44,161 nucleotides of DNA, from contig JAQBXL010000010.1 of the NCBI GenBank assembly GCA_027624135.1, positions 1-44,161 of the forward strand, given 5' to 3'. Position numbers and translations under genes: made by a program. The notes below the pieces were generated by a model. It saw only the letters and a program-made list of their open reading frames with translations, was not told the origin of the DNA and made no database searches. Below are positions 5,368 to 8,395 of the stretch, one piece after another. The stretch's first letter is position 1. Each line of letters starts with the position of its first letter. The stretch comes from Chloroflexota bacterium (GTDB taxonomy: Bacteria > Chloroflexota > Dehalococcoidia > Lucifugimonadales > UBA3495).

Positions 5368-7140
5368 ATGTTAGACCACGGCTCTCTCGAAACCGAGGGC
5401 GTTGACGAGGCTCAAGCCCACCGCAACGCCATGCGCCATTCTGCCGCCCACGTGATGGCCGACGCTGTCCTCAAACTTTTCCCCGAGGCCAAGATGGGTA
5501 TCGGCCCGCCCATCCAAGACGGGTTCTACTACGACTTTGAGGTTGCCCGCCCGTTCACTCCGGAAGACCTGGAAGCGATCGAAAAGCTGATGCGCGAGAC
5601 GATCAGCGGCAGTTTCCCGTTCGAGCGAGAGGAACTCACCCGCGCCGACGCCGAGGCTATGTTCGCCGATCAGCCCTACAAGCTGGAACTGATCGAGGGG
5701 CTGGCCGACGACGCCAAGATCTCCATCTACCGGCACGACAGGTTCGTGGACCTGTGCCAGGGGCCCCACGTTGGCGGCACTTCAGGCATTCCGGCCATGA
5801 AGCTGCTCAGCGTGGCCGGCGCCTATTGGCGGGGCGACGAAAAACGGCCCATGCTCCAGCGCATCTACGGCACGGCCTTCGACTCTGAAGCCGAGCTAGC
5901 GGAACACCTGGAGCGGTTGGAAGAAGCCGAGCGCCGGGACCACCGGACCCTGGGCCGCCAGTTGGGGCTATTTAGCATCCATGAAGAGATCGGCCCCGGT
6001 CTGATCGTCTGGCACCCCAAGGGGGGCCGGCTCCGCTCCTTGGTTGAAGACTATTGGAAAGACCTCCACTTCCGGCTGGGCTACGACATCGTGTATTCGC
6101 CCCACATCGGAAAGGCTCAATTGTGGGAGACCAGCGGCCACTTGGATTTCTACCAGGAAAACATGTTTGCCCCCGTGGAAGTGGACGAGCAGCAATACTA
6201 CCTGAAGCCCATGAACTGCCCCTTCCATATCTCCATCTACCGCTCGAATCTGCACAGCTACCGGGAGTTGCCGCTGCGGTTCGCTGAGTTGGGAACCGTC
6301 TACCGCTACGAGCGCAGCGGTGTTTTGCACGGCCTGATGCGCGTGCGTGGCTTCACCCAAGACGATGCGCATATCTTCTGCACTCCGGACCAGGTCGAAG
6401 ATGAGATTGGTGGCGTGTTGGAGTTGACCTTCGAATTACTGGATGCCTTCGGGTTTTCCGATTTTCCCATCGCTCTCTCGACAAGGCCCGATAAATACGT
6501 GGGCGACCCCGAGATGTGGGAACACGCCACCAATTCGCTACAGAGCGCGCTGGAAAAACGGGGACTGCCCTTCACGGTAGACGAGGGTGGCGGCGCGTTC
6601 TATGGCCCCAAGATTGACATCAACATCACTGACGCCCTGGGCCGAGCCTGGCAGTGCACTACCGTGCAGTTCGACTTCAACCTGCCCCAACGGTTCGATC
6701 TGACCTATCAAAACGCCGAGGGCGGACGGAGCCAACCCTACATGGTCCACCGGGCCATCCTTGGCTCCATGGAGCGGTTCTTGGGCGTATTGATAGAGCA
6801 TTACGGCGGCGCGTTCCCGGTATGGCTGGCGCCGGTGCAGGCAGTGCTGATACCCATCGCCGACCGGCACATCGAGTATTGCGAGTCGGTGTCGGCCACC
6901 CTTGAGGCTGGGGGATTCCGCGCCGAGGTGGACACCCGGGGCGAGCGAATGAACCAGAAGATCCGCACCGCCCAGATGCAGAAGGTGCCCTATATGCTAG
7001 TGGTGGGAGACCGGGAGCAAGAAGCCGGGGCAGTAGCCGTGCGCCACCGCGGCGGCGAAGACCTGGGGGCCATGCCCCTAGCCGACTTCATGACCCGCCT
7101 GGGAGAGGAAGCCCAGGTTCCCAAGGGCTCGGCTGGGTAG
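5368..7140 (+). CDS. thrS: Threonine--tRNA ligase (no N-terminal TGS domain)
   Basis: [35 protein letters not shown]-like second domain, [23 protein letters not shown]. Confidence 0.95.
   Translation: [590 protein letters not shown]
7041..7140 (+). repeat. Upstream copy of thrS 3'-end direct repeat (intact)
   Basis: About 90% identical by eye to 7821-7922. Confidence 0.9.
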
Positions 7141-7208
7141 AAGTCAATCAGAAGCCCATCGGTGACATCTTTGGTTGGGCTGCTATCCCTCGGAGGGAGA
7201 ATTAGAAA

Positions 7209-7439
7209 GTGAAGAACCTGACTCGCATCACATTCGACCAAAAGGTGATGGGTGGTAAGCCCTGTATTCGCGGCCTGCGTGTCACAGTGGGAACCATCGT
7301 CGGACTCGTCGCCGCAGGCTACTCAACCACAGACATCTTGCAATCCTATCCGTATCTGGAAAAAGAAGATGTCATGGAGGCTCTGGCCTACGCTGCTTGG
7401 CGCTCAGAAGAGATAGAAGTGCCCCTTAGCGAGGGGTGA
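7209..7439 (+). CDS. DUF433 family antitoxin-like protein
   Basis: ITFDQKVMGGKPCIRGLRVTVGTIVGLVAAGYSTTDILQSYPYLEKEDVMEALAYAA is a canonical DUF433 sequence; GTG start with GGAGGGAG upstream. Confidence 0.9.
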   Translation: MKNLTRITFDQKVMGGKPCIRGLRVTVGTIVGLVAAGYSTTDILQSYPYLEKEDVMEALAYAAWRSEEIEVPLSEG

Positions 7440-7448
7440 CGATTTGGT

Positions 7449-7820
7449 TTGGGTTTGAGACTGCTGATTGACATGAACCTCTCCCCTGACTGGGTTGAGG
7501 TGTTTAAGCAAGCGGGCTGGGAGGCGGTTCACTGGTCTAATACGGGAGACGTTGGTGCGCGTGACGATGTAATTATGGAATGGGCGCGTATGAACGGTTG
7601 CGTCCTCTTCACCCATGACCTTGACTTTGGAACACTGTTGGCAACTACCCGCGCTCAAGGACCCAGTGTAATTCAAGTTCGTACCCAAGATACAATGCCG
7701 AGGGGTCTGAGCGTCAGACTGATACAGCTACTTCAACTCTACGAGACGACCCTCGATAGTGGCGCACTGATTACGGTGGATGAAATCAGGTCTAGAGTGC
7801 GTATCCTTCCCTTCTACTAA
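7449..7820 (+). CDS. DUF5615 PIN-like toxin protein
   Basis: RLLIDMNLSPDWVEVFKQAGWEAVHWSNTGDVGARDDVIMEWARMNGCVLFTHDLDFG; adjacent to DUF433. Confidence 0.9.
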   Translation: MGLRLLIDMNLSPDWVEVFKQAGWEAVHWSNTGDVGARDDVIMEWARMNGCVLFTHDLDFGTLLATTRAQGPSVIQVRTQDTMPRGLSVRLIQLLQLYETTLDSGALITVDEIRSRVRILPFY

Positions 7821-7922
7821 GCGCCACCGCGAAGGCGAAGACCTGGGGGCCATGCCCCCCTAGCCGACTTTATGACCCGCCTGGGAGCGGAAGCGGAAGT
7901 TCCCAAGGGCTCGGCTAAGTAA
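7821..7922 (+). pseudogene. Degraded duplicate of thrS 3' end
   Basis: Matches 7041-7140 with a 2-nt C-tract insertion that frameshifts it (GEDLGAMPP*). Confidence 0.85.
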
Positions 7923-7971: not shown

Positions 7972-8247
7972 TCAACGGCTCCTTTCCACCAAGCGCCCAC
8001 CAACATATTTGTGCAGAACGCTTCCCATCAGTGTTTGATAGGGGATGCCTTCTTCCAAGGCACGCGCTTGGATGGCCTCCAAATCTTTCTTCGATAGCCT
8101 AATGTTCACCCGCATATCTTTCTTGAATGTGGCGCGGGCGTACTGCCCGTAACGCTCAATATCAGAATCTTGGTTCGTTGACGACCGCCACTCGTCTCGT
8201 TCGTACGACTCCACCAAATCCTTTTCTTCTTTATTAAAACTAGTCAT
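7972..8247 (-). CDS. CopG/RHH-like antitoxin
   Basis: MRVNIRLSKKDLEAIQARALEEGIPYQTLMGSVLHKYVGGRL is typical of CopG-type antitoxins paired with small toxins. Confidence 0.8.
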   Translation of the reverse strand: MTSFNKEEKDLVESYERDEWRSSTNQDSDIERYGQYARATFKKDMRVNIRLSKKDLEAIQARALEEGIPYQTLMGSVLHKYVGGRLVERSR

Positions 8248-8395
8248 TTGACGCTCCGTGTTCCAGATATTCTTGGGTCGCTTTCCGGCTGGGAATGATC
8301 GTTTTCAAAAATACTTCATTCTCATTCTCGACAAACGGTACGAGGTGAGCATTTTGGAGACAGATCGTGAACAGTTTTGAAGCCCCGGCTGTCAT
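8240..8395 (-). pseudogene. Truncated toxin-like ORF (C-terminal part only)
   Basis: NAHLVPFVENENEVFLKTIIPSRKATQEYL resembles the C-terminus of toxins partnered with CopG antitoxins; overlaps the antitoxin start. Only about 51 codons remain before the cupin/discoidin gene. Confidence 0.5.

Follow-up and report, generated by a model that had tools for sequence, protein, structure and literature searches.

Islands that depend on an integrase and restore the 3' end of the gene into which they insert are well known: the upstream copy completes the gene, and the old end is displaced downstream. Restriction-modification (RM) systems reportedly insert with a long target duplication, as Nobusato and colleagues (in 2000) and Furuta and colleagues (in 2010) are said to have described. 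The duplications made by RM systems are long and variable, of the order of 100 bp (PMC3874152; PMC1643837). When circular molecules that carry a gene end integrate by a single crossover in E. coli, gene-end duplications of 109-950 bp result (PMC3240628); for T6SS and Rhs loci, a displacement of gene 3' parts that is anchored by homology has been proposed (PMC5361080). How chromosomal toxin-antitoxin (TA) modules move without a visible mobile element is an open question; we found no open paper describing insertion by gene-end duplication for TA pairs, which is not proof of absence, and our literature search returned none naming both DUF433 and DUF5615. In this study, we have explored a stretch of 44,161 nucleotides (the window), contig 64 of the 213-contig, MAG-like genome G000, in which a DUF433/DUF5615 pair stands behind thrS between two copies of the end of that gene. 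We consider that the best explanation, and a moderately probable one, is host homologous recombination, with no integrase, acting on DNA that carried a TA cassette attached to a thrS 3' end.

The thrS gene (5368-7140, plus strand) encodes an intact threonine--tRNA ligase of 590 aa (TIGR00418, 735 bits, E 7e-221; Pfam class II core, anticodon domain and SAD), the upstream copy of the repeat supplying its C-terminus as the preliminary description had proposed. This functional copy is the last 100 nt of the gene (7041-7140, plus strand, stop codon at 7138-7140), and it recurs, displaced and frameshifted, at 7821-7922 on the same strand. The identity of about 90% first estimated by eye was accurate: 90 of 100 positions agree, the downstream copy has two additional C, and the repeat search divides the match at this 2-nt insertion into 38 nt at 95% (7041-7078/7821-7858) and 65 nt at 89% (7075-7139/7857-7921). 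With an E-value of 1.3e-34, chance is excluded as the origin of the repeat (only 1/389 mismatched flank pairs gave one). Between the copies lie two adjacent plus-strand genes that both exceed the Pfam cut-offs, namely a DUF433 gene (7209-7439, 76 aa, GTG start; PF04255, E 2.8e-24), which is a probable antitoxin, and a DUF5615 gene (7449-7820, 123 aa; PF18480, E 1e-23; PIN_10, E 6e-5), which is a PIN-like probable toxin. The TAA of DUF5615 is the final codon of the insert and the downstream copy begins directly after it, at 7821, exactly as had been noticed; the right junction (7820/7821, plus strand) reads CTACTAA/GCGCCA. The pair does lie between the copies, but a leader of 68 nt (7141-7208, plus strand) runs from the thrS stop to the DUF433 start, so that the inserted unit is 7141-7820, or 680 bp instead of the 780 bp or so given before; its start is placed where both thrS tail copies cease matching. 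DUF433 and DUF5615 are the only genes of this insert, and a Pfam check confirmed that the 680 bp encode no recombinase or integrase; nor was there an integrase among the genes tested on either side. The unit is probably best read as a small type II TA cassette added behind thrS, a reading that we hold jointly with the recombination mechanism and no more firmly, and in which DUF5615 would be the toxin and DUF433 the antitoxin. The DUF433 protein is weakly similar in sequence to 2ga1, another protein of the DUF433 family and without known function.

The surroundings of the downstream copy agree with the earlier proposal that it is the displaced native end. It is decaying, and it runs into a gene for a CopG-type antitoxin (7972-8247, minus strand; PF12441, E 1.9e-6) that has the same place in G002 and G009 and marks the native downstream flank. 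In G009, an empty site, the single thrS end is followed directly by this reverse-strand CopG gene, and the same order after the downstream copy in the window indicates that this copy stands in its native context. Beside CopG (7972-8380, minus strand), only the C-terminal part of its toxin seems to be left, so the window seems to carry an orphan antitoxin; in G002 the corresponding toxin is a full 95-aa ORF (L031:1008-1295) similar to BrnT, with a PF04365 match below the Pfam cut-off. The comparison of empty sites that had been recommended gave a consistent picture: relatives without the pair (G001, G003, G005-G010) have a single thrS end, and none of the pair-less relatives compared carries both copies. 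In G001 (L035), an unrelated gene lies between thrS and CopG.

A filled site was found in G002 (MAG B15T1B11), which belongs to the same genus. Its contig C56 carries the DUF433/DUF5615 pair, the identical CTACTAA/GCGCCA junction, an in-frame thrS tail and then CopG; as this contig begins inside DUF433, the upstream thrS end falls outside it and the second G002 copy is presumed. The tail in G002 shares only 77-78% identity with each of the two window copies. Furthermore, dS between G002 and the window is 0.12 for DUF433 and 0.27 for DUF5615, whereas it reaches 0.57 in thrS, 0.66 in the DUF255 gene and 0.95 in the cupin gene, and this lower divergence of the module than of its flanking genes implies that the module was exchanged horizontally. 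As judged from these divergences, the module moves horizontally, and it sits at one and the same junction in both genomes, G000 and G002. The G002 DUF5615 gene (L031:218-586) contains an in-frame TGA, and this toxin is probably inactivated. A second comparison of empty and filled sites within the genus is offered by VapBC with a tail copy behind an ornithine cyclodeaminase-family gene (PF02423). This site is filled in G002, G000 and G007 (L347, L351 and L354, with tail copies of 27, 39 and 21 nt) and empty in G003, G005, G009 and G010; in G007, VapBC is more diverged than its host gene.

The arrangement is not confined to thrS. We compared by blastn (E <= 1e-3) the 800 bp upstream with the 500 bp downstream of DUF5615 genes, and this search for further modules between duplicated host-gene ends, also recommended beforehand, found flanking direct repeats at 33 of 131 loci in the class, a count that includes the same site in related genomes (L056, L088, L092, L096), and at 6/26 elsewhere in the phylum. 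Roughly one in four of these pairs in related bacteria thus has flanking repeats. VapC (PF01850), tried as a negative control, was itself positive (7/50 VapC-type PIN genes), as was ParE (3/30); both are also TA modules and so imperfect as negative controls. Because VapC was positive, we took as controls mismatched flank pairs (1/389; Fisher 1.6e-20 against the DUF5615 loci), thioredoxin loci (0/28; p 0.0014) and random positions (13/515, of which two are the thrS locus and three fall in the G023 thrS-HicBA array). The repeats are from 25 to about 290 nt long, and many of the repeat-to-repeat spacers are near 620-750 bp, about the size of a TA pair. Many repeats are host-gene 3' ends that include the stop codon or lie close to it: apparently those of elongation factor P in two genomes of different families (L164 in G161 and L170 in G364, named from the C-terminal sequence), of a response regulator, of an ABC transporter ATPase and, in four genomes of one genus, of a radical SAM gene (these three named by eye), as well as those of proC (P5CR family) and of a FemAB gene. 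Others are at gene 5' ends (L050, L165) or cannot be clearly assigned to a host gene. With so many other gene ends used, the special tie to tRNA-synthetase genes that the thrS locus had seemed to indicate is unsupported. A search with the toxin gave no match in viral contigs; in genome contigs it found seven loci, five of them from other phyla, and these five have no strong flanking repeat (one has a 19-nt match). Taken together, the survey suggests that TA pairs spread by swapping in a gene tail, without an integrase of their own.

The mechanism that we favour would start from an incoming DNA molecule, a circle or a fragment, in which the thrS 3' end is joined to the cassette. A single crossover in the gene tail would then give thrS in intact form, followed by the cassette and by the former tail, which, being useless, would decay. 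As the two tails are direct repeats, the same host recombination could later excise the unit as a circle of tail and TA pair and restore the empty site. The circle could reinsert at that gene elsewhere, in a different cell or species, or the unit could be amplified in tandem; no step would require an integrase. Both the crossover and the circle or fragment intermediate are deduced from the arrangement of the copies, and no circle or excision product was visible in the assemblies.

The main alternative is that the cassette inserted beside the stop codon and about 100 bp of target were copied in place, the copy without a gene then decaying. At thrS, this fits as well as recombination with an incoming tail. 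In a genus tree of thrS tails the two window copies are sisters (UFBoot 97) on a common stem of 0.093, and they share three changes absent from the eight other tails; the downstream tip is the longer (0.077 against 0.037), as expected of a decaying copy, and it is also the downstream copy that has the frameshift. With 3.5 synonymous and 5.5 nonsynonymous changes between the two, a dead copy is not rejected, and sliding identity revealed no distant-donor tract in the window thrS. The diverged donor invoked in the preliminary description is thus not borne out here: a thrS donor, if there was one, would have been close kin, or else the tail was copied in place. The geometry, too, is that of the RM cases, with their long and variable duplications of about 100 bp (PMC3874152, PMC1643837). 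The same clustering of the copies had been named beforehand as a possible sign of a slippage product unrelated to the TA pair. The copies do cluster, but the identical junction in G002 and the class-wide association link the duplication to the TA insertion.

Copying in place fails elsewhere. After such a duplication, the dead copy should change mostly nonsynonymously, and we therefore counted changes in the host frame. The proC copies differ by 19 synonymous changes against 1 nonsynonymous in 47 codons (P 8e-12 if one copy were dead) and the FemAB copies by 31.5 against 15.5 over 92 codons (P 4e-10); with the living copy allowed an equal synonymous share, P is 7e-8 and 7e-5, respectively. The FemAB downstream copy also resembles the sequence of another genus more than it does its upstream counterpart (82.7% identity to G549 against 78.7% to the upstream copy). 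In the tail trees, both limited by the distance of the relatives, this copy groups with G493/G549 (78), and the two copies of proC come out as sisters (UFBoot 90). A pooled pN/pS of 0.22 was obtained over 16 loci, small counts dominating outside proC and FemAB. As far as coding sequences can tell, the synonymous excess shows that the paired tails at proC and FemAB were parts of functional genes while they diverged in separate lineages, and hence that one tail at each came from another lineage; the diverged donor that thrS does not show is found there. Finally, copying alone does not explain the identical junction in G000 and G002. Based on this, we consider that duplication in place is, on the whole, unlikely.

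A second alternative would be a gene-restoring element that depends on a site-specific recombinase supplied in trans, with its core at the start of the duplicated tail. Besides the precedent of islands that restore gene 3' ends, this would agree with the junction shared by G000 and G002 and with the start of the thrS tail copy in G023. In this genome (a single contig), two HicB/HicA units stand in tandem behind thrS, and in front of the second is a copy of the thrS tail whose start lies within about 3 bp of the codon where the window copy starts. The array (L047, G023:C1:1441000-1449700) ends in a short piece of the same thrS tail, and the tandem units with their thrS tail fit amplification between direct repeats. 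The region behind thrS varies across the family in other ways as well. In G021, the displaced thrS tail is on another contig than the intact thrS and starts at a different codon from that of the window, which speaks against such an element. This tail (L147, G021:C13, about 5840-5980) has a stop and lies between an FKBP-like gene and a dehydrogenase gene, the latter being the gene downstream of thrS in relatives. In G016 and G029, a related DUF433/DUF5615 pair stands behind thrS without a detectable tail copy; a decayed relic of the tail behind DUF5615, suggested by eye in both, was rejected against shuffles (p 0.93 and 0.58). Against a dedicated recombinase also stand the 680-bp insert that encodes none, the many unrelated target genes, some of them used at their 5' ends, and repeats of such different lengths, in which an unsystematic look noticed no common core. 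This explanation is accordingly very improbable. As for an ordinary TA acquisition beside a thrS end that was tandemly duplicated in an unrelated event, or an artefact of assembly, the many contigs of the MAG-like genome and a thrS broken across contigs in G002, G003 and G004 (where strain variation at the locus is possible) might speak for it, but the same base-exact junction in an independent MAG excludes an artefact, and repeats at a quarter of the DUF5615 loci, with almost none at mismatched pairs or non-TA genes, leave hardly any probability for either.

Recombination of an incoming tail with its cassette may have a wider bearing. We tentatively propose, as a possibility and not as our expectation, that small TA pairs form a general class of integrase-free mobile cassettes for which the 3' end of a host gene serves as a portable homology address. 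Each would travel as a circle or fragment of gene tail and TA pair and enter any cell that has the gene through RecA-type recombination, leaving the gene intact and the old tail as a footprint. If the donor route were general, ordinary homologous recombination would be enough to spread selfish gene pairs between species. Repeats of host-gene ends are a readable footprint of insertion and make empty and filled sites comparable, and the balance of synonymous and nonsynonymous divergence, together with the sisterhood of the tails, is a direct test between a repeat produced in place and one introduced by a donor.

In comparison with the described systems, RM insertion comes closest. In both, an addictive gene pair stands between host direct repeats of about 100 bp and variable length, without a transposase, and relatives that lack the insert are single-copy (here at thrS and at the ornithine cyclodeaminase-family gene). 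In contrast to RM systems, the cargo here is a sub-kilobase TA pair, DUF433/DUF5615, often bracketed by gene 3' ends; the repeats come from different functional lineages at proC and FemAB, and the junction recurs in two species. In-place copying of the RM type is thus compatible with thrS and contradicted at proC and FemAB. The circular-DNA crossovers of E. coli (PMC3240628) likewise duplicate part of a gene end around the insert, but those were laboratory plasmid constructs with identical sequences and not a natural cassette. In the displacement of T6SS effector-immunity and Rhs modules (PMC5361080), a homology-anchored module similarly displaces the former 3' part, which is left downstream as a relic; in that case the cargo is the variable gene end, whereas here an equivalent end is swapped in and the cargo is a separate TA pair. 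Like the gene-restoring islands, the upstream copy restores the thrS 3' end; unlike them, the unit has no integrase, is 680 bp instead of many kb and uses many target genes. The geometry is therefore one already known from RM systems, from which the locus and its counterparts differ in their TA cargo and in the donor-derived tails at proC and FemAB.
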